Source of the DNA: Saccharothrix syringae
GTDB taxonomy: Bacteria; Actinomycetota; Actinomycetes; Mycobacteriales; Pseudonocardiaceae
Assembly: GCF_009498035.1 (NCBI RefSeq)
Contig: NZ_CP034550.1
Coordinates: forward strand, 9,672,001-9,736,000
DNA length: 64,000 nucleotides
Direction: 5' to 3'
Made by a program: the position numbers and the translations under genes. The notes beneath the pieces are model-generated. The model had not been told where the DNA came from, searched no databases, and saw only the letters and a program-made list of their open reading frames with translations. Shown here one piece after another: positions 8,945 through 60,409 of the stretch. How positions within the stretch are numbered: position 1 is the first letter of the stretch; each line of letters starts with the position of its first letter.

Positions 8945-9055
8945 GTGCCCCGACGGCTGCTGACCTGGTGCGACCGCACGATCGACCTCCTGCTGGTGGC
9001 GTCGTGCGGCTGTAGCGGGACGCGGCGCGGCCGGTTGGGCCACCCGTTGACCTGA
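8945..9055 (+). CDS. cysteine-containing leader peptide (uORF) before cysteine dioxygenase
   Basis: A 36-codon GTG-initiated frame reading VPRRLLTWCDRTIDLLLVA, then SCGC, then a short basic tail and TGA. The RLLTWxxxxIDLLxVA core matches the small putative leader peptides that actinobacteria place before sulfur-metabolism genes. Cysteine codons are at 8969, 9005 and 9011, and the last two almost abut the left arm of a hairpin (9019-9067). The stop lies 65 bp before the cysteine dioxygenase start. Cysteine-responsive attenuation by such uORFs is known in mycobacteria; its operation here is inferred. No good ribosome-binding site precedes the GTG. A CACCAT element six bases upstream would fit a leaderless transcript. 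Confidence 0.6.
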   Translation: MPRRLLTWCDRTIDLLLVASCGCSGTRRGRLGHPLT

Positions 9056-9067
9056 CGGCGCCGCGTC
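9019..9067 (+). promoter_or_regulatory. attenuator-like hairpin overlapping the leader peptide
   Basis: GACGCGGCGC at 9019-9028 pairs perfectly with GCGCCGCGTC at 9058-9067. The left arm lies inside the leader ORF, starting five bases after its last cysteine codon; the right arm begins just after the leader's stop codon. Ribosome position on the leader would therefore decide whether the hairpin forms. This is an architectural inference. Confidence 0.5.
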
Positions 9068-9120
9068 GCGTCTTGATCGCTACCCCGCACTTCCCCGTAG
9101 CCTTCGAGGAGCGACACACC

Positions 9121-9699
9121 GTGACGACCACGATCCCAGGTGCCTACCTGCACCCGAAGCTGGACGTGCAGCTGCTGCGCGACATCATCCACCCCGACCG
9201 CGACCTGTGGACGCCGCGCGAGCTGCGCGAGCTGACCTCGACCGTGGCGGCCGAGCTGACCAGCCCGCTGCTGGAGGTCCTGGAGTACTCCGCGGAGCGC
9301 CGCTGGTGGGTCCGGCTGGGGCTGACCACCGGCGTCGAGCTGTGGCTGCTGAGCTGGTTGCCCGGTCAGGGCACCGAGCCGCACGACCACGGCGGGGCGG
9401 CCGGGTCGTTCACCGTGCTGACCGGCGAGCTGGCCGAGGACTACCGGTACCCGGGTGGGCCGGTCCGCAGCGCCGCGCGGCCGGTGGGCAGCGCGCTCGG
9501 GTTCGGGGCGGGCCGGGCGCACCAGGTGGTCAACCGGGGGCCGGTGGGCGCGGCCAGCGTGCACGCCTACTCCCCGCCGCTCGTGCCGACCCGCGAGTAC
9601 CCGAGCCTGGCCGACGTGCCGGACGTGATCGAGGCGCTGCCCGCGCAGCGCCTGCCGCTGGACCAGCTGGACCTGCTGACCGAACTGGAGGGCCCGTGA
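9121..9699 (+). CDS. cysteine dioxygenase, cupin fold
   Basis: A 192-aa protein. The cupin iron site is visible as EPHDHGGAAGSFTVLTGELAE (His-x-His, then Glu) with a second histidine in RAHQVVNRG. The family oxidises L-cysteine to cysteine sulfinate. The GTG at 9121 was chosen over a longer frame from 9073 because GAGGAG lies eight bases upstream. Its stop overlaps the rhodanese start by GTGA, so the two are co-translated. A cysteine-codon leader and hairpin precede it, suggesting control by cysteine supply. Confidence 0.88.
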   Translation: MTTTIPGAYLHPKLDVQLLRDIIHPDRDLWTPRELRELTSTVAAELTSPLLEVLEYSAERRWWVRLGLTTGVELWLLSWLPGQGTEPHDHGGAAGSFTVLTGELAEDYRYPGGPVRSAARPVGSALGFGAGRAHQVVNRGPVGAASVHAYSPPLVPTREYPSLADVPDVIEALPAQRLPLDQLDLLTELEGP

Positions 9700-10082
9700 G
9701 CGCGGAGCGGTTGCTGGACGAGGCGCGGCGCGACCTGCGCCGCGTGACCCCCGACGACCTGGCGGACCTGCCGGACGCCCTGGTGGTCGACATCCGCCCC
9801 CAGCACAACCGCGCCGCGGAGGGCGAGGTACCCGGCTCGATCCCCGTGGAGCGCATCGTCCTGGAGTGGCGCCTCGACCCGACCGGCGACCACCGCATCC
9901 CCGGCTTCACCGCCGACACCACCGTGGTCGTCGTCTGCAACGAGGGCTACGCCTCCAGCCTGGCCGCCCGCGACCTCCAGCGCCTCGGCCTCCCCAACGC
10001 CACCGACCTGGTGGGCGGCTTCCGCGCCTACGCCGCCGCCGGCCTCCCCACCCGCCCGGGCCCCACACCCCCCATCACCTAA
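9696..10082 (+). CDS. rhodanese-like sulfurtransferase domain protein
   Basis: A 128-aa single rhodanese domain. The strand/loop ALVVDIRP near residue 28 and the active-site loop VVVCNEGYASSLAA with the catalytic cysteine are intact, followed by the usual LGLPNATDLVGGFRAYAAAGLP ending. It probably handles persulfide sulfur produced during cysteine breakdown. The GTGA overlap with cysteine dioxygenase mirrors the cysteine dioxygenase-rhodanese fusions known in other bacteria. The GTG start is fixed by that overlap. Confidence 0.85.
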   Translation: MSAERLLDEARRDLRRVTPDDLADLPDALVVDIRPQHNRAAEGEVPGSIPVERIVLEWRLDPTGDHRIPGFTADTTVVVVCNEGYASSLAARDLQRLGLPNATDLVGGFRAYAAAGLPTRPGPTPPIT

Positions 10083-10097
10083 CTCCCACCCACCCCC

Positions 10098-10338
10098 GCG
10101 CGTGTCCTCCACTCCAACACCACGTGTCCTCCAGTCCGACACCGCGAGTCGAACCTTCCGGACCCCCGTGTCGAACCTCCCGGACCCCCGAGTTCCACAT
10201 TCGCAGAGCCCAGGCGCTCGACCTGGGGGGCGTGAACGTGGAACTCGGGGGTTCTGAACGTTCGACACGACGGGTCTGAACGTTCGACTCGCGGTGTCTG
10301 GGTGGAGGACACGCGGTGTCGGAGTGGAGGACTCGCGG
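10098..10338. repeat. about 240-bp hierarchical palindrome built of repeated modules
   Basis: The left half strings together modules of two types: GTGTCCTCCAGTCCGACACC-like (twice) and CGAGTCGAACCT-n-CGGACCCCC-like (twice), then GAGTTCCAC. The right half is the same series in inverted order: GTGGAACTC, GGGGGTTCTGAACGTTCGAC, GTTCGACTCG, then two GGTGTC...TGGAGGAC copies. The centre holds a small hairpin, CCCAGG/CCTGGG. The arms pair in blocks of 9-12 perfect bases separated by short mismatches. Copies of the same modules, all in one orientation, flank the insertion sequence at 58701-59648. It may act as a terminator or as a mobile intergenic repeat. Translation of this stretch in the next gene's frame is repeat-like and not counted as coding. 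Confidence 0.85.
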
Positions 10339-10373
10339 GGAACCGGGGTGGGGGTGGGTGCGTCTGGTGGTGG

Positions 10374-11531
10374 GTGTGGAAGGTGCTGACCGCGGTCGTC
10401 GTGGTGGTGTTGGCGGTTTGGCGGCCCGGGGTGGCGGTGTTCGGCGGGGCCGCGGTGGGGGCCTGGGCGGTGTACGCGCTGGTCAGCGGCGGGTTGCTGG
10501 TCGGGGCGCTGCTGTGCGGGGTGCGGGTGTCGCTGGTCGTGGTCGGGGTCGGCGGTGAGGTGCGGACCTGGACTCGGCCCGGGCGGCGGGTGGTGTGGCG
10601 GACCGTGCCGCTGGTGGTGGCGGTCGGGTTGACGTCGGTCAAGGCGCCGGTGCGGTGGCGGTTGTGGGGGGCCGCGGTGACCGCCGCGGTCGGGGTGGGG
10701 GCGGTGGTCGTGGCTGCTTGGGGGGCGGCTGACTGGGGTGCGGGCGGCTGGGGGTGGGCCGGGAGCAGCGGGGAGCCGGGGTGGCGGGAGTTCTGGCTCG
10801 GGTTCGCGGTGGCCGGGACGGCGGTGGTGGGCAACGCGCTGTGGCCGCGGCGGGTGCCGGGGATGACGTCGATCGGGTGGTTCCTGTTCGCGTTGCCCCG
10901 GCTGGCGGGGCGGCCGCTGGAGGAGTACGAGGCGATGCCGCTGGTCACCCGGGTGACGGACGCGCTCGCGGTGGGGAGGCTCGACGAGGCCGACGCGGTG
11001 TCGGCGGAGCTGCTGGAGCGCCACCCGGGGTTGCTGGTGGCCGCCGGGGCGCGGATCGCGACCTTGACCCTGCGCACGCGGTACGCCGAGGCGTTGCAAC
11101 TGGTCACGTCGATGGTCGGCCGGCGGGACCTGGAACCCCGGGACATGGCGTTCGTGCTGGCGCAGATGGCCGGTTCCACGGTCAACGCGGTGGAGGCCGG
11201 GCTGGTGCCGCGGGACGTCGGGCTGCCGGCGGCCAAGCGGGCGCTGGAGGGTGCGGTGCAGCTGGGCTACCCGCGTTACCGATGCGCGTCCGCGCTGGCC
11301 CGGGTGGCGTTGCTGGAGGGCGACCACGCCACCGCGCTCACCCTCGCCGACCAGGCCGGGCAGACCAGCGAGGACGGGTTGGACCGGGCCGACGCGCTGG
11401 CCACGCTGGCCCGCGCGCAGATGGCCGCGGGCGACAACGCGGCGGCCCGCGCCACGCTGGTCGAGGCCGAGCGGCTGGCCGGCTGGCTGCCCCGGGTCGT
11501 CGAGACCGGTGCCCGGCTCAACATCGACTGA
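10374..11531 (+). CDS. membrane protein with C-terminal TPR-like helical repeats
   Basis: About 385 aa. The first 190 residues contain four to five hydrophobic segments (for example VLTAVVVVVLAV and TAVVGNALWP). The rest is a soluble helical region with TPR-like pairs (ALAVGRLDEADAVSAELLERHPG, ALARVALLEGDHATALTLADQAG). No enzymatic motif is seen and the function is unknown. The GTG at 10374 was chosen because residues encoded upstream come from the palindromic repeat; a longer frame opens at 10302. It is convergent with glgP, with a shared terminator hairpin between them. Confidence 0.7.
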   Translation: MWKVLTAVVVVVLAVWRPGVAVFGGAAVGAWAVYALVSGGLLVGALLCGVRVSLVVVGVGGEVRTWTRPGRRVVWRTVPLVVAVGLTSVKAPVRWRLWGAAVTAAVGVGAVVVAAWGAADWGAGGWGWAGSSGEPGWREFWLGFAVAGTAVVGNALWPRRVPGMTSIGWFLFALPRLAGRPLEEYEAMPLVTRVTDALAVGRLDEADAVSAELLERHPGLLVAAGARIATLTLRTRYAEALQLVTSMVGRRDLEPRDMAFVLAQMAGSTVNAVEAGLVPRDVGLPAAKRALEGAVQLGYPRYRCASALARVALLEGDHATALTLADQAGQTSEDGLDRADALATLARAQMAAGDNAAARATLVEAERLAGWLPRVVETGARLNID

Positions 11532-11563
11532 AGGGTTGAAGGACGGGGACCGAAGGACCGGAC

Positions 11564-11595
11564 CCGGGTGCGGACCAGAACCGGCCCGCACCCGG
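11564..11595. terminator. bidirectional terminator hairpin between convergent genes
   Basis: CCGGGTGCGG (11564-11573) pairs with CCGCACCCGG (11586-11595). It sits in the 69-bp gap between the ends of the membrane/TPR gene and glgP. There is no U-tract, as is common in actinobacteria. Confidence 0.6.
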
Positions 11596-11600
11596 TCGGA

Positions 11601-14153
11601 TCAGCCGGCCAGGACGACGCGGCCCAGTTCGGCCGGTGACGCCAGCAGGTCGTGGCGGGGCAGGACGCGCACCGTGTACCCCACCGCGCCGGCGTGCGAC
11701 AGCGGCACCTCGACCTCGTAGTTGCCGTTGCCCGCGTAGTCCATGGGGTGCGTGACCACGTCGTACAGCTCGTCCGAGTCGCCCACGCGCCCCAGCGCGA
11801 CCTGCACGTCCACCTCGGACGGCTCCAGCCCGGCCAGCTCGATCCGCGCCCGCACGCCCACCGGCGAGCCGAGCAGCGGCGTGGCCGAGCCGTTCAGCGA
11901 CACCTCCGAGTCGAGCACCCGCACCCGCGTCCACGACGCCCGCAGCCGCTGCCGGTACGCCGCCAGCTCCTTGGCACCCCGGTACCCGTCGCCGACCACG
12001 GACGCCGCCGACGCCGCCGCGGGCGCGTACAGGGCCTCCACGTACTCGCGCACCATCCGCGACGCCTGCACGGCCGGGCCGAGCGAGGCCAGCGTGTGCC
12101 GGACCATCGACAGCCACCGGGTGGGCACGCCGTCCTCGCCGCGGTCGTAGAACAGCGGCGCGACCTGGTTGCCCAGCAGGTCGTAGAGGGCGGCGGCCTC
12201 CAGGTCGTCGCGCCGGTTGGGGTCGCCGACGCCGTCCGCGGTCGGGATGGCCCAGCCGTTGCTGCCGTCGTAGAGCTCGTCCCACCAGCCGTCGCGGATG
12301 GACAGGTTCAGGCCGCCGTTGAGCGCGGACTTCATGCCGGACGTGCCGCACGCCTCCAGCGGGCGCATCGGGTTGTTCAGCCACACGTCGCAGCCCCAGT
12401 ACAGGTACCGGGCCATGGACATGTCGTAGTCGGGCAGGAACACGATCCGGTGACGCACGCCCGCGTCGTCGGCGAACCGCACGATCTGCTGGATCAGCGC
12501 CTTGCCGCCGTCGTCGGCCGGGTGCGACTTGCCCGCCACGACCAGCTGCACGGGCCGCTCGGGGTGCAGCAGCAGGGCGCGCAGCCGCTCGGCGTCGCGC
12601 AGCATGAGGGTGAGCCGCTTGTAGGTGGGCACGCGGCGGGCGAAGCCGACGGTCAGCACGTCGGGGTCGAACACCGAGTCGGTCCAGCCCAGCTCCAACG
12701 CGCTGGCGCCGCGCTGGAGCCAGGACGCGCGGGTCCGGCGGCGGACCTCCTCCACGAGCTTGGCGCGCAGGTCGTTGCGCAGCCCCCACAGGCGCTCGTC
12801 GGTGACCGGCTCGAAGCCGCGCAGGCCCACGCCCGGGTCGTCGGTCTCGCCGAGCAGCCTGCTCATCTCGGTGGCCGTCCAGGTGGGGCCGTGGACGCCG
12901 TTGGTGATGGACCCGATGGGCACCTCGGTGGCGTCGAAGCCCGGCCACAGGCCGCGGAACATCTCGCGGCTGACCGAGCCGTGCAGCTCGGACACGCCGT
13001 TGGCGCGCTGGGCGAGCCGCAGGCCCATGTGGGCCATGTTGAACAGGCCGGGGTTGTCCTCGGCGCCCAGGGCGAGGACGCGCTGGGTGTTCACGCCCGG
13101 CAGCAGCTGCTCGGAGCCGAAGTAGTGCTGGACCAGGTCGACCGGGAACCGGTCGATGCCGGCGGGCACGGGGGTGTGCGTGGTGAACACCGTGCCCGCG
13201 CGCACGGCGGCCAGCGCCTGGTCGAAGTCCAGGCCCTCGCCGGTGACCAGCTCGCGGATGCGCTCCAGGCCGAGGAACCCCGCGTGTCCCTCGTTCGTGT
13301 GAAACACCTCGGGCGCCGGGTGCCCGGTCAGGTCGCAGTAGGTGCGCACCGCCCGCACGCCGCCGACGCCGGCCAGGATCTCCTGCTTGATGCGGTGGTC
13401 CTGGTCGCCGCCGTAGAGGCGGTCGGTGACGCCGCGCAGGTCGTCGTCGTTCTCCTCCACGTCGGAGTCGAGCAGCAGCAGCGGGACGCGGCCGACCCGC
13501 GCCTTCCACACCTTGGCGCGCAGCACGCGGTCGCCGGGCATGGCGACGTGCACCAGGATCGGCGCGCCGGACGGCTCGGTGAGCAGCTCCAGCGGCAGGC
13601 CGCGCGGGTCGAGCACGGGGTAGTGCTCGATCTGCCAGCCGTCGAGCGACAGGGCCTGGCGGAAGTAGCCGGACCGGTAGAGCAGGCCGACCGCGATCAG
13701 CGGCACGCCGAGGTCGGAGGCCGCCTTGAGGTGGTCGCCCGCCAGCACGCCGAGGCCGCCGGAGTAGTTCGGCAGGGCCTCGGTGACGCCGAACTCCATG
13801 GAGAAGTAGGCGATGGCCCGGGGCAGCGGTGGCCCGCCGTGCTGCCGGACCTCCTCCTGGCGGCGCTGGAACCAGCGGGGCCCGGTGGTGTAGCGGTGCA
13901 GGTCCTCGTCCAGGGCGCGGAGGTGCGCGAGGAACTGCTCGTCGCGCGCCAGCGCGTCCAGCCGCCCGGGGTCTACCTCGGACAGCAGCCGGAGGGGGTC
14001 GTTGCCGACGGCCCACCGCTCCGGGTCCACTGAGGCGAACAGGTCCTGGGTGGGCTGGTGCCACGTCCAGCGCAGGTTCGTGGCGAGGGTGCCCAGGGCC
14101 GCCAGCGGCTCGGGCAGGCTGGCTCGGACGGTGAACCGGCGAAGTGCTCGCAT
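11601..14153 (-). CDS. glgP: alpha-glucan (glycogen) phosphorylase
   Basis: An 850-aa protein starting MRALRRFTVRASLPEPL. The N-terminal about 110 residues form the DUF3417 extension (LGTLATNLRWTWHQP) typical of the actinobacterial/AlgP branch. The GT35 core follows, with SMEFGVTEALPNYSGGLGVLAGDHLK and the pyridoxal-phosphate lysine in CGTSGMKSALNGGLN. It phosphorolyses alpha-1,4-glucan ends to glucose-1-phosphate, feeding central metabolism, with GlgX as debranching partner. The ATG at 14153 is preceded eight bases upstream by TAAGGT, so the transcript may be leaderless. An in-frame start 13 residues upstream looks unlikely. It is divergent from the glgE operon. Confidence 0.96.
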   Translation of the reverse strand: MRALRRFTVRASLPEPLAALGTLATNLRWTWHQPTQDLFASVDPERWAVGNDPLRLLSEVDPGRLDALARDEQFLAHLRALDEDLHRYTTGPRWFQRRQEEVRQHGGPPLPRAIAYFSMEFGVTEALPNYSGGLGVLAGDHLKAASDLGVPLIAVGLLYRSGYFRQALSLDGWQIEHYPVLDPRGLPLELLTEPSGAPILVHVAMPGDRVLRAKVWKARVGRVPLLLLDSDVEENDDDLRGVTDRLYGGDQDHRIKQEILAGVGGVRAVRTYCDLTGHPAPEVFHTNEGHAGFLGLERIRELVTGEGLDFDQALAAVRAGTVFTTHTPVPAGIDRFPVDLVQHYFGSEQLLPGVNTQRVLALGAEDNPGLFNMAHMGLRLAQRANGVSELHGSVSREMFRGLWPGFDATEVPIGSITNGVHGPTWTATEMSRLLGETDDPGVGLRGFEPVTDERLWGLRNDLRAKLVEEVRRRTRASWLQRGASALELGWTDSVFDPDVLTVGFARRVPTYKRLTLMLRDAERLRALLLHPERPVQLVVAGKSHPADDGGKALIQQIVRFADDAGVRHRIVFLPDYDMSMARYLYWGCDVWLNNPMRPLEACGTSGMKSALNGGLNLSIRDGWWDELYDGSNGWAIPTADGVGDPNRRDDLEAAALYDLLGNQVAPLFYDRGEDGVPTRWLSMVRHTLASLGPAVQASRMVREYVEALYAPAAASAASVVGDGYRGAKELAAYRQRLRASWTRVRVLDSEVSLNGSATPLLGSPVGVRARIELAGLEPSEVDVQVALGRVGDSDELYDVVTHPMDYAGNGNYEVEVPLSHAGAVGYTVRVLPRHDLLASPAELGRVVLAG

Positions 14154-42989: not shown

Positions 42990-43952
42990 ATGAAGGCTGT
43001 TGCTCTTCTATCGGTGGCTCTTTTCTCGGTGGCGGCGTGCGGTGGCGGGCAGATCGGCGACACCGGCGGCGCGGGTGACGCCAAGCGGATGGTGCTCATC
43101 CCCGGCGTGGCCGCCGAGCCGTTCTACATCTCCCTGGAGTGCGGGTTCCGCGAGGCGGCCTCGGAAGCCGGGTACTCGGTCGACGTGCAGGCGCCCGCGA
43201 AGTTCGACTCGACGCTGCAGGCGCCCATCGTCACGGGCGTGCTCGCGAACAAGCCGGGCGCGGTGCTCATCGCGCCGACCGACGACAAGGCGATGGCGGG
43301 GCCGGTCAAGCAGCTCGCCGACGCGGGCATCAAGGTCGTCGAGGTGGACACGAGGCTGGAGGACACCTCGATCGCCGTGTCCACGGTGTCGTCGAACAAC
43401 GAGCAGGGCGGGCGGCTGGCCGCCCGGACCCTGGCCCGCCTGGTCGGTGGCGGGACGGGTTCGGTGCTGGTGCTCAACACGAGGGCGGGGACCTCCACCA
43501 CCGACGCGCGGGCGGCCGGGTTCGAGGACGAGGTGAAGAAGTACCCGAACCTGCGGTACGTGGGCCAGCAGTACACCGACAACGAGCCCGACCAGGCGGC
43601 GTCCAAGGTGACCGCCACGCTGGCCGCGAACCCCGATTTGGTCGGGGTGTTCGCGACCAACCTGAACACCGGCGAGGGCGCCGCCACGGGCCTGCGCAAC
43701 GCGGGCCGGACCGGCGCGGTGAACCTGGTGGGGTTCGACGCCTCGCCCAAGCAGGTGGCCGACCTGCGGGCCGGGGCGGTGCAGGCGCTGATCGCGCAGG
43801 ACCCGGCGACCATCGGTCGGACCGGGGTGGAGCAGGCGGTGGCCGCCCTGGAGGGGCGTGAGGTGCGGCGGGACGTCGAGACCGACCTGGTGGCGTTGAC
43901 CAGGGAGGACATGGACGCCAACTCGCGGTACTTCTACAAGCAGCAGTGCTGA
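42990..43952 (+). CDS. sugar-binding lipoprotein of the ABC transporter
   Basis: A 320-aa precursor with lipobox FSVAAC (cleavage before Cys18). The rest is a Peripla_BP_4 sugar-binding fold (FYISLECGFREAASEAGY, VTGVLANKPGAVLIAPTDDKAM, VFATNLNTGEGAATGLRNAG, VGFDASPKQVADLRAG). It captures the sugar for the CUT2 permease. The ATG at 42990 follows GAGAGGGCGGG. It is the last gene of the operon and precedes a terminator. Confidence 0.92.
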   Translation: MKAVALLSVALFSVAACGGGQIGDTGGAGDAKRMVLIPGVAAEPFYISLECGFREAASEAGYSVDVQAPAKFDSTLQAPIVTGVLANKPGAVLIAPTDDKAMAGPVKQLADAGIKVVEVDTRLEDTSIAVSTVSSNNEQGGRLAARTLARLVGGGTGSVLVLNTRAGTSTTDARAAGFEDEVKKYPNLRYVGQQYTDNEPDQAASKVTATLAANPDLVGVFATNLNTGEGAATGLRNAGRTGAVNLVGFDASPKQVADLRAGAVQALIAQDPATIGRTGVEQAVAALEGREVRRDVETDLVALTREDMDANSRYFYKQQC

Positions 43953-58617: not shown

Positions 58618-58700
58618 CGCCCCCGCGAGTCGACCCCTCACCCCCGGCGAGTCGAACCTCCAGCACCCCCGAGTTCAACACTCAACCCGCGCGTGTCCTC
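58618..58700. repeat. modular repeat, left part (interrupted by IS)
   Basis: Modules GCGAGTCGA...ACCCCC, GCGAGTCGAACCTCCAGCAC-CCCC and GAGTTCAACA, then the start of GCGTGTCCTC. They match those of the 10098-10338 palindrome but all point one way. The last module is cut after CTC by the insertion sequence and resumes at 59649. Confidence 0.75.
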
Positions 58701-58716
58701 GAGCGTTATTCAGAAG

Positions 58717-59526
58717 TCATCGGCTCAGGCGGTAGTGCTCGAGGTTGGTGACGATGCGGATGATGGTGGGGAGTTCGGCCAGGCGGGCGCGGTAGCCGGT
58801 GGCGAGGATTTTCCAGTTCTTCAGGTGGGCGATGGCGCGTTCGACGGGCCACCGGTGCCGGGCGAGCAGGGTGTTCCATGCCTGGTCTGTGGGGGTGTGG
58901 CGGGTGTGGCCGGGGCGTTTGCGGCGTGGGGTGGTCACGCCGGTGCCCTGGTAGCCCAGATCGCCGATCACGACGGTGGTGGCCAGCAGGTCGGCCAGGC
59001 CGGAGAGGCGGTAGGCGCGGCTGTCGTGGGTGCGGCCGGGCAGGGGTGGGAGGACGGCGAGCAGTCGGCCTCGCCGGTCGGTCAGGACCTGGATCGAGAG
59101 TCCTTGTTTGCGGTGTTTGCCGTTGTGGTTGGGGTGCGGGCCGCGCCGTGGCGCGTCGGTGGGGTGCGGGTCGGGGTGGGCGCGTGTGCCGGTGGGGATC
59201 AGGGTGCCGTCGACCAGCACCGTGGTCAGGCGGGCCGGCAGGTCGGGCAGGCGCGGGGTGTGCAGACAGAGGACCTGGCCGATCAGGGGCGTGAAGCGAC
59301 GGAAGATCCGGGAGACGGTGGGTTGGGAGACGCCGAACAGGTCGGCCGCGAGGGTCTGGGACAGGTTGTGGCGCAGCAGCACCAGCGTGAGCAGCACACA
59401 ACGGTGCAGGCTGAGCGCGGGCGGTCGTCCCCGTCGCAGGTCGGGATCGGGGACGACCTGGCGGATCCGGGTGGTCAGCTCCCGCAGCTGGGCAGGGGAC
59501 AGCCCGGTCGTAGAGTGGTAGCGCAA
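58717..59526 (-). CDS. IS5-family (DDE_Tnp_4 type) transposase
   Basis: A 269-aa protein. An N-terminal HTH region (LSQTLAADLFGVSQPTVSRIFRRF) precedes the DDE core: VLVDGTLIP (first D), VVIGDLGYQG (second D) and RWPVERAIAHLKNW (E). No frameshift is needed. The TTG start at 59526 lies within the left arm of a 14-bp inverted repeat, so its translation may be blocked in read-through transcripts. It ends just inside the left terminal repeat. Confidence 0.9.
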   Translation of the reverse strand: MRYHSTTGLSPAQLRELTTRIRQVVPDPDLRRGRPPALSLHRCVLLTLVLLRHNLSQTLAADLFGVSQPTVSRIFRRFTPLIGQVLCLHTPRLPDLPARLTTVLVDGTLIPTGTRAHPDPHPTDAPRRGPHPNHNGKHRKQGLSIQVLTDRRGRLLAVLPPLPGRTHDSRAYRLSGLADLLATTVVIGDLGYQGTGVTTPRRKRPGHTRHTPTDQAWNTLLARHRWPVERAIAHLKNWKILATGYRARLAELPTIIRIVTNLEHYRLSR

Positions 59527-59593
59527 CAGCCCTGTCCTGGTGGTCGTGCTTCTGTGAGAGGAAACCGACCCTATCCGGGCAGGGCTGTTGCGC
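59521..59593 (-). promoter_or_regulatory. foldback hairpin and internal promoter of the transposase
   Basis: GCGCAACAGCCCTG (59521-59534) and CAGGGCTGTTGCGC (59580-59593) are perfect 14-bp complements. Between them the minus strand carries TAGGGT (59573-59568), a -10. Transcripts from it lack the outer arm, whereas those entering from outside carry both arms and bury the TTG start. Confidence 0.65.
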
Positions 59594-59648
59594 TGTCAGC
59601 CCAGGCATCACCACCGGCCACCCCAGCCAGCAGTTCTGAATAACGCTC

Positions 59649-59700
59649 CTCCACTCAGACACCGCGTGTCGTCCAGTCCGACACCGTGTGTCCTCCAGTC
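59649..59700. repeat. modular repeat, right part (interrupted by IS)
   Basis: Continues the module cut at 58700 (CTCCACTCAGACACC) and adds GCGTGTCGTCCAGTCCGACACC-type and GTGTGTCCTCCAGTCAC modules, ending at the stop of the hydrolase gene. Confidence 0.75.
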
Positions 59701-60409
59701 ACACCCCGACCCGGCGCCGCCACCCCAGCACCGCCGAGGCGAACGCCTCCGGCGCCTCCAACGGCGTCAGGTGCCCGACCCCGGCCAACTCGACGTACTC
59801 ACCCCGCCGCAGCACCCCGGCCAGTTCCCGCGCCAACGGCGGCGGTGTGAGCGCGTCGTGCTCCCCCACCAGCACCAACGCCGGGACGTCGGCCGCCGCC
59901 AGCACGTCCGTCGAGTCCGGCCGCACCGCCATCGCCCGCTGCGCCCACGCCACCTCCGCCGGGTCCTGCCCCAGCACCAGCTCCCGCGCCCGCCCGAAGA
60001 CCGCCGCGTCCGGCGCCGGCCCGAGCAGCCCCGCCAGCACCGCGTCCGGCACCCACCCGACCCCCTCCGCCGCCACCCGCGCGGCCATCCCCAGGCGGTT
60101 CGCCCGCGCCTCGTCGGTGTCGGCCCCGGCCCGCGTGTCGGCCAGCACGAGCCCGGCCACCCGCTCCGGCGCGCGCCGCAGCACCGCCATCGCCACGTAG
60201 CCGCCCATCGAGCACCCGCCGAGCACCGCCCGCTCGATCCCGCGCTCGTCCAACATCGCCACCACGTCGTCCGCGATGACCACCAGATCGGGTGAACGAT
60301 CCCCGCCGCGCTGGTCGAAGGTGATCGGTTTCAGCAGGTCACGGACCCCGTCCCACATCCGCGAGTCGAACGGGAAGGCGTGCAGCAGCACCAGGGGCAA
60401 GGAAGTCAC
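59699..60409 (-). CDS. alpha/beta hydrolase
   Basis: A 236-aa hydrolase: LLHAFPFDSRMWD (oxyanion HAFP), GCSMGGYVAMAV (nucleophile Ser), LVGEHDALTPP (Asp) and ELAGVGHLTPLEAP (His). It resembles 3-oxoadipate enol-lactonase/esterase-type enzymes; the substrate is open. The GTG at 60409 is chosen because the longer frame from 60448 would collide head-on with the GNAT start. Confidence 0.85.
   Translation of the reverse strand: MTSLPLVLLHAFPFDSRMWDGVRDLLKPITFDQRGGDRSPDLVVIADDVVAMLDERGIERAVLGGCSMGGYVAMAVLRRAPERVAGLVLADTRAGADTDEARANRLGMAARVAAEGVGWVPDAVLAGLLGPAPDAAVFGRARELVLGQDPAEVAWAQRAMAVRPDSTDVLAAADVPALVLVGEHDALTPPPLARELAGVLRRGEYVELAGVGHLTPLEAPEAFASAVLGWRRRVGV

Follow-up and report, generated by a model that had tools for sequence, protein, structure and literature searches.

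A family of 22-bp modules, set head to tail in arrays, is dispersed through the genome of Saccharothrix syringae and, as far as tested, is restricted to the Pseudonocardiaceae. The variable core of the module is characteristic of the genome and follows species rather than locus, a pattern of concerted evolution, and no described repeat family or mobile element tested accounts for them. Our preferred reading, which we regard as evenly balanced in likelihood, is a REP-like family homogenised by copying, whose palindromic copies probably act as transcription barriers; we infer both the barrier and the homogenising mechanism.

An earlier note on the window (the whole stretch of 64,000 nucleotides that was analysed) had described a nested, modular palindrome of about 240 bp. 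This structure is real. Two arms of exactly five 22-bp modules each (10102-10211 and 10225-10334) flank a 13-bp centre, giving ten modules in 10102-10334 that read inward from both sides. In module orientation and from the outside to the centre, both arms carry CCTCC, CCTCC, CGAAC, CGAAC and a GAGTTC end module, which lies beside the centre and raises the earlier count of two module types to three. The locus is laid out as follows:

9696..10082, plus strand: upstream gene for a rhodanese-like domain protein, its stop codon 19 nt before module 1
10102..10123, plus strand: module 1, GTGT-CCTCC type, left arm
10124..10145, plus strand: module 2, GTGT-CCTCC type, left arm
10146..10167, plus strand: module 3, GAGT-CGAAC type, left arm
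10168..10189, plus strand: module 4, GTGT-CGAAC type, left arm
10190..10211, plus strand: module 5, GAGTT-CCAC end module, left arm
10212..10224, no strand: 13-bp palindrome centre
10225..10246, minus strand: GAGTT-CCAC end module, right arm
10247..10268, minus strand: GTGT-CGAAC module, right arm
10269..10290, minus strand: GAGT-CGAAC module, right arm
10291..10312, minus strand: GTGT-CCTCC module, right arm
10313..10334, minus strand: GAGT-CCTCC module, right arm
10374..11531, plus strand: downstream gene, co-directional, without a Pfam family at E 0.001

The modules lie within a wider inverted repeat (10076-10214 / 10222-10360) that is 77% complementary. Between mirrored modules of the palindrome, the first 13 bases agree at 11-12 positions and the last 9 at 4-8.

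The recurrence of modules 48 kb away, also noted earlier, was confirmed as a one-sided array of six modules that starts at 58627 and is split by an insertion sequence. Module starts and positions, the ends of the insertion sequence and its duplication were counted or read by eye:

58627..58700, plus strand: second array, modules at 58627, 58649 and 58671 and the first part of the fourth (58693)
58701..59648, no strand: insertion sequence inside the fourth module
59649..59705, plus strand: remainder of the fourth module and two further modules (59666 and 59688)

The gene whose stop codon precedes this array matches DivIVA slightly below the curated cut-off. The insertion sequence encodes a DDE_Tnp_4 transposase (58717-59397, minus strand), ends in GAGCGTTATTCAGAA and TTCTGAATAACGCTC and has an apparent 3-bp duplication, CTC. 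The sequence GWGTCCTCCA is also found at 43357 and 57065 of the window, within coding-like sequence, and these two matches look like chance.

Throughout the host genome (10.93 Mb, a single contig), GWGTCCTCCA occurs in 288 copies vs 15 for the reversed control, and a general two-module pattern in 22-bp register finds 608 neighbouring pairs vs 1. The proposal of a genome-wide intergenic family is thus borne out, with hundreds of copies rather than modules at two loci. A CCTCC-specific two-module pattern matched 1 of 200 family genomes, namely the host genome. With a core-free pattern, at least 10 matches were found in 15 of 25 genomes of the genus Saccharothrix and none in the other 10 (counted by hand). 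Across the Pseudonocardiaceae, 105 of 390 genomes had at least one match, and abundant arrays (at least 10 pairs) were present in 43 of the 390, from 12 genera (again a hand count); the reversed control gave 7 matches in one of these genomes (G159) and at most 3 in every other. A sample of 246 genomes from the class yielded 10 with matches, the host and nine with one or two each; the reversed control matched five genomes of this sample, and the counts of the nine are near control. Among the matches listed are Saccharothrix, Amycolatopsis, Kutzneria, Lentzea, Haloechinothrix, Actinophytocola, Pseudonocardia, Labedaea and Kibdelosporangium, some of them by a single match, as well as single matches in three unrelated metagenome bins. 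A distant-mode search of a plasmid collection gave no match. In searches of the open-access literature, none of the titles and abstracts listed described such repeats in Pseudonocardiaceae, and an older description may exist.

We analysed the unit in 441 body modules drawn from 120 listed loci, a 400-kb host sample and the window; the 120 loci are the matches listed (at least 120 exist, 80 of them listed by name) and form a sample chosen for carrying the pattern. The module is CGC-G(A/T)GTC-nnn-C-GTTC plus a 9-base tail, and the logo of the 441 modules reads C-G-C-G(A/T)GTC-nnn-C-G-(T/C)TC, after which comes a loose tail of nine bases, the letters fixed by the search pattern being fixed by construction. 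In 87 end modules GWGTT, mostly GAGTT, replaces GWGTC. A GAGTT module closes the array in many Saccharothrix arrays, with exceptions such as L206. The register is strict: same-strand neighbours (n = 355) are spaced by 22 bp in 315 cases, 44 bp in 18, 21 bp in 15, 66 bp in 3 and other distances in 4, so that 336 of the 355 spacings are multiples of 22. One-sided arrays taken alone show the 22-bp spacing in 169 of 189 neighbours.

Arrays that face each other form a nested palindrome, and otherwise the array is one-sided. Among 122 arrays, 48 run in both directions and 74 in a single one; because the search pattern misses degenerate modules, some of the 74 scored as one-sided may be partly two-sided. 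The pattern can also match one module on both strands, and statements on direction rest on a cleaned list; such false matches numbered 3 in the syntenic blocks described below (all in G201) and 0 in the 120 loci, the host sample and the window. We rejected a hairpin within the single module, since none rose above shuffles: over the 441 modules the best dyad has 5.05 pairs vs 5.00 in shuffled sequence, and the MFE is -3.2 vs -3.6.

The position of the arrays relative to genes, which were called by a simple GC-frame script and not taken from annotation, is biased. The arrays lie at gene 3' ends, and many begin 5-10 nt past the stop codon. In the 120 listed loci, the 83 intergenic regions that carry arrays comprise 57 convergent, 22 tandem and 4 divergent ones, vs 61, 190 and 114 for the remaining regions of 60 bp or longer in these loci. 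The convergent enrichment has an odds ratio of 10.9 (p 8e-20) in this sample chosen for carrying the pattern. In the 400-kb host sample and the window together, 11 array regions divide into 4 convergent, 7 tandem and 0 divergent; here the convergent excess is weak (4/11 vs 30/200, p 0.08), and the value for divergent regions is p 0.04. Just 2 of 110 module clusters lie inside called genes, with 18 at locus edges left out. Modules pointing away from the gene begin 5-9 nt past its stop codon in 25 of 83 cases, 20-39 nt past it in 29 (about one module later, as in TGACCCGCG-GWGTC) and at least 60 nt from it in 18. Gene-facing modules are placed more loosely relative to the stop codon.

Comparison among congeners showed that several of these positions are shared. 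Syntenic blocks from eight genomes (200 kb each, except 157 kb for G204 and 204 kb for the host) have 232 intergenic regions in common, and in 13 of these one genome or more has an array. A number of arrays are found at corresponding places across the eight congeners and some also agree in direction, which is not kept at every locus. At the site orthologous (by eye) to the second array, 6 of 7 genomes have a one-sided array of common direction, and the remaining one, G204, has a single module that matches the pattern. One convergent locus has an inward palindrome in 6 of 7 genomes and is empty in the host. Locus (103,104) has six arrays, half of them inward palindromes and half one-sided, and locus (14,15) has three one-sided arrays and two inward ones.

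The locus of the window's palindrome is variable. Arrays are present there in G159, G201, G172, G088, G127, G209, G207, G204, G202 and G203, none of them with a CCTCC core, and no array was seen in G143, G208, G205, G110, G184, G210, G212, G195, G213 and G200, the last two judged by eye only. Four genomes are left out of this tally: G211, in which the flanking genes lie about 2.85 kb apart, and G021, G059 and G206, which matched only in pieces. In seven syntenic genomes the array at this locus points outward in five, is one-sided in G201 and points inward in the host. The array in G201 (L083) consists of six nearly identical tandem copies of one module, which suggests a recent local expansion. 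In G208 (L093), other, partly coding-like sequence fills the region.

The variable core behaves differently from the positions. It is mostly CCAAC in Saccharothrix sp. ALI-22-I (34 of 44 body modules), CGTAC in Actinophytocola gossypii (24 of 27) and CCAAC in an Actinophytocola bin (19 of 19); the host sample is mixed (CATGC 15, CGAAC 15 and CCTCC 9 of 42). For 37 arrays at 8 loci in 8 genomes, core identity is 0.704 between different loci of the same species, 0.611 between species at the same locus and 0.583 when both differ. The species effect has p 0.003 and the locus effect p 0.22, or 0.25 on the cleaned list. In one orthologous array, with the loci aligned at 87%, both arms have CGAAC-type body modules in one genome vs mostly CCAAC-type in the other. 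We had also considered the CGAAC-type modules as look-alikes of a tRNA T-arm and dropped the idea because other cores break the resemblance.

Module number changes as well. The sister genomes G203 and G143 are 98.4% identical over 2.5 kb. Of eight G203 arrays selected for comparison, seven were compared, since no flank was located for the eighth. In G143, each of the seven sites has two or more modules. Gaps of 5 bp or longer number 11 in the alignments: 22 bp in six cases, 44 bp in one, and 23, 17, 15 and 7 bp in one each; two of the seven arrays have no such gap. Module number therefore varies between relatives, as the earlier note had anticipated. Its idea of growth by module pairs is not supported: 7 of the 11 gaps are of 22 or 44 bp, and these fall in single arms and in either direction, as expected of single modules. 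Changes by whole modules suggest that unequal exchange or slippage takes place inside an array. At the palindrome's locus the two genomes differ completely, with a five-module array in G203 vs a 40-bp near-perfect palindrome in G143 (L092) that looks related to the arrays and has flanks about 98% identical to those of G203. Over 180 kb around this locus, the pattern finds this one array in G203 and none in G143.

Species-wide cores at shared positions fit either copying between arrays or coevolution with a sequence reader. In our preferred reading, copying between the arrays of one genome, by gene conversion or template switching, would homogenise the cores, local unequal exchange would change the number of modules, and the location at gene ends would reflect tolerated insertion together with usefulness as a transcription barrier. 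A review of 1988, cited in a survey of REPs (PMC3733652), reportedly raises in its title the question of REP evolution by gene conversion. Coevolution with a binding protein would be expected to leave a very similar pattern. The module might then be the binding site of a sequence-specific protein, and the phased 22-bp arrays at gene ends would form a polar or two-way roadblock to RNA polymerase, possibly a roadblock terminator against colliding transcription, or else a chromosome-organising signal; site and protein specificities would change together, and the core would shift genome-wide as they did. The strong frame GWGTC-nnn-C-G-YTC (its letters partly imposed by the search pattern) with loose tails, the fixed 22-bp period that includes one-sided arrays, a core coordinated by species, direction kept at several loci and the close approach of away-pointing modules to stop codons (25/83 at 5-9 nt and 29/83 at 20-39 nt) all speak for such a site. 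We nevertheless rate it as rather unlikely. A putative binder would have to tolerate CATGC, CGAAC and CCTCC, which coexist in the host, and the patchy presence of arrays (none in 10 of 25 genus genomes) argues against an essential role. If a factor did read the arrays, those at old positions common to several species would receive a 3-4-base core specific to each species, and the family would parallel, in bacteria, a fast-evolving binding protein that has hundreds of sites.

The barrier that our preferred reading assigns to the palindromic copies rests on their folding. Folding the transcript, as the earlier note had proposed, gave a strong hairpin for 10080-10360 (-217 kcal/mol, z -15; none of 200 shuffles folded as well); folded as DNA, 10095-10341 reached -108.8 kcal/mol (z -14). 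This hairpin probably reduces the transcription that runs on from the rhodanese-like gene into its co-directional neighbour. Fold z is below -3 in 46 of 48 palindromic arrays vs 8 of 52 folded one-sided arrays, for which the median is -1.3. Since one-sided arrays (74 of 122) have little RNA structure, a hairpin barrier is not the general function of the family, and the roles suggested earlier (terminator, RNA stabiliser or cruciform) may apply to the palindromic copies. No T-tract terminator was found in window positions 9000-12000, and Rfam gave no match at the gathering cut-off in the window and five host-genome loci. Many actinobacterial terminators lack a T-tract. At the palindrome's locus, eight array-less congeners were folded; another stable hairpin was found in G110 (z -6.6) and G143 (z -3.9), and no special hairpin in the remaining six (G205, G195, G208, G184, G210 and G212).

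The two arms of an array are alike to differing degrees. Innermost cores are equal in 15 of 18 arrays vs 11.05 expected (p 0.04). In one data set mirrored tails are no more alike than tails from other loci (0.548 vs 0.542), and in another the two arms of one locus are more alike than arms from different loci (0.630 vs 0.515). The data sets thus disagree on pairing or copying between arms and on strict arm-by-arm compensation. The equal innermost cores, the strong hairpins of the palindromic copies, the convergent enrichment with divergent depletion and the different hairpins that two of the eight folded congeners have at the palindrome's locus would fit ordinary two-way terminators of convergent genes, selected for the hairpin only. 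This explanation is unlikely, however, because a hairpin needs no conserved frame, no one-sided 22-bp register and no genome-wide core, and because most arrays scored are one-sided and weakly structured. The missing T-tract in 9000-12000 counts against it too, and the palindrome at 10102-10334 itself lies between co-directional genes.

We also considered selfish repeats with no host function, spread by a putative transposase and kept where they are harmless, after stop codons. Their patchy distribution and depletion between divergent genes are compatible with this, as are arrays that stand opposite empty orthologous sites. Three G202 arrays stand at sites that are empty in the relatives compared, and one of them, a palindromic array in region (30,31), shows a possible 5-bp direct repeat, GGTCA (by eye); inspection by eye revealed none beside the remaining two. 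Several arrays are, however, retained among congeners, and no transposase for the family was found with the PF01797 profile in the host or in a screen of 243 flanking genes for recurring families. Those genes, from part of the loci, include no recurring gene family: their largest similarity clusters have 4 members, one cluster consisting mostly of orthologues. Three genes with arrays on both sides encode three different proteins (by eye). On this evidence we consider a purely selfish origin quite unlikely. Among the matches listed for G202, few of the CGAAC type fall within the first 4.2 Mb of the contig and they are dense beyond it, while pairs of the CCTAC type are present in its first 1.5 Mb.

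Known systems resemble the family in part. Like the MIRU/VNTR repeats of mycobacteria, the arrays change copy number by whole units, but the present family consists of hundreds of dispersed arrays with one frame, at stop codons and often facing each other; MIRU loci are fewer and are not known to be arranged as facing gene-end arrays. Actinobacterial terminators without a U-tract share the strong GC-rich hairpins after genes and differ from the arrays, which have a conserved sequence frame and one-sided forms. MITEs are likewise short, non-coding and dispersed (PMC3733652, consulted in part), whereas the arrays have internal tandem structure and at most one candidate target duplication, the GGTCA read by eye.

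The closest likeness is to REP/BIME elements, which the earlier note had invoked. According to the sections consulted of a survey that covers the GTAG and CGTC superfamilies (PMC3733652), REPs occur in high copy number in intergenic regions and lie mainly 3' of genes, in the gaps between convergent or co-directional neighbours; oppositely oriented units combine into larger hairpins, and types differ between species. The arrays share the abundance, the gene-end placement, the opposed units that form larger hairpins and the difference in type between species. By contrast, the 22-bp unit is non-palindromic and stands in an exact 22-bp tandem register, and the host has no RAYT match. The unit contains no palindrome that an end tag could mark; the REP tag GTAG is found in 5 of 441 modules and CGTC in 65, as plain substrings at any position, and the fixed module ends are GWGT. 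A word search of the survey text consulted (PMC3733652) gave no mention of actinobacteria. As placement and copy number agree and both the palindromic unit and the RAYT fail, we describe the family as REP-like in behaviour and not as a member of the REP family. Mobilisation of the family by a RAYT (Y1 transposase), the proteobacterial mode, is highly improbable despite placement and copy number like those of published REPs (PMC3733652, in the sections consulted): Y1_Tnp (PF01797) has no match in the host genome and matches 6 of 60 genomes selected, among them some that have arrays and some that lack them, and the modules are not palindromic and rarely contain GTAG.

A second repeat of about 100-150 bp lies beside the arrays in 5 of 16 host loci listed (L001, L006, L012, L014 and L021). 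In L014 its two ends read CGATTTGACATGGG and CCCATGTCAAATCG, and its end 16-mer has 13 copies in the host genome vs 0 for the control.

The arrays offer an unusually clear natural case of concerted evolution among dispersed bacterial repeats, in which several arrays hold their position and the core is rewritten in each species. The Pseudonocardiaceae are known for antibiotic production. If the arrays end transcription, they would set gene boundaries and would affect both the expression and the annotation of gene clusters in this family.
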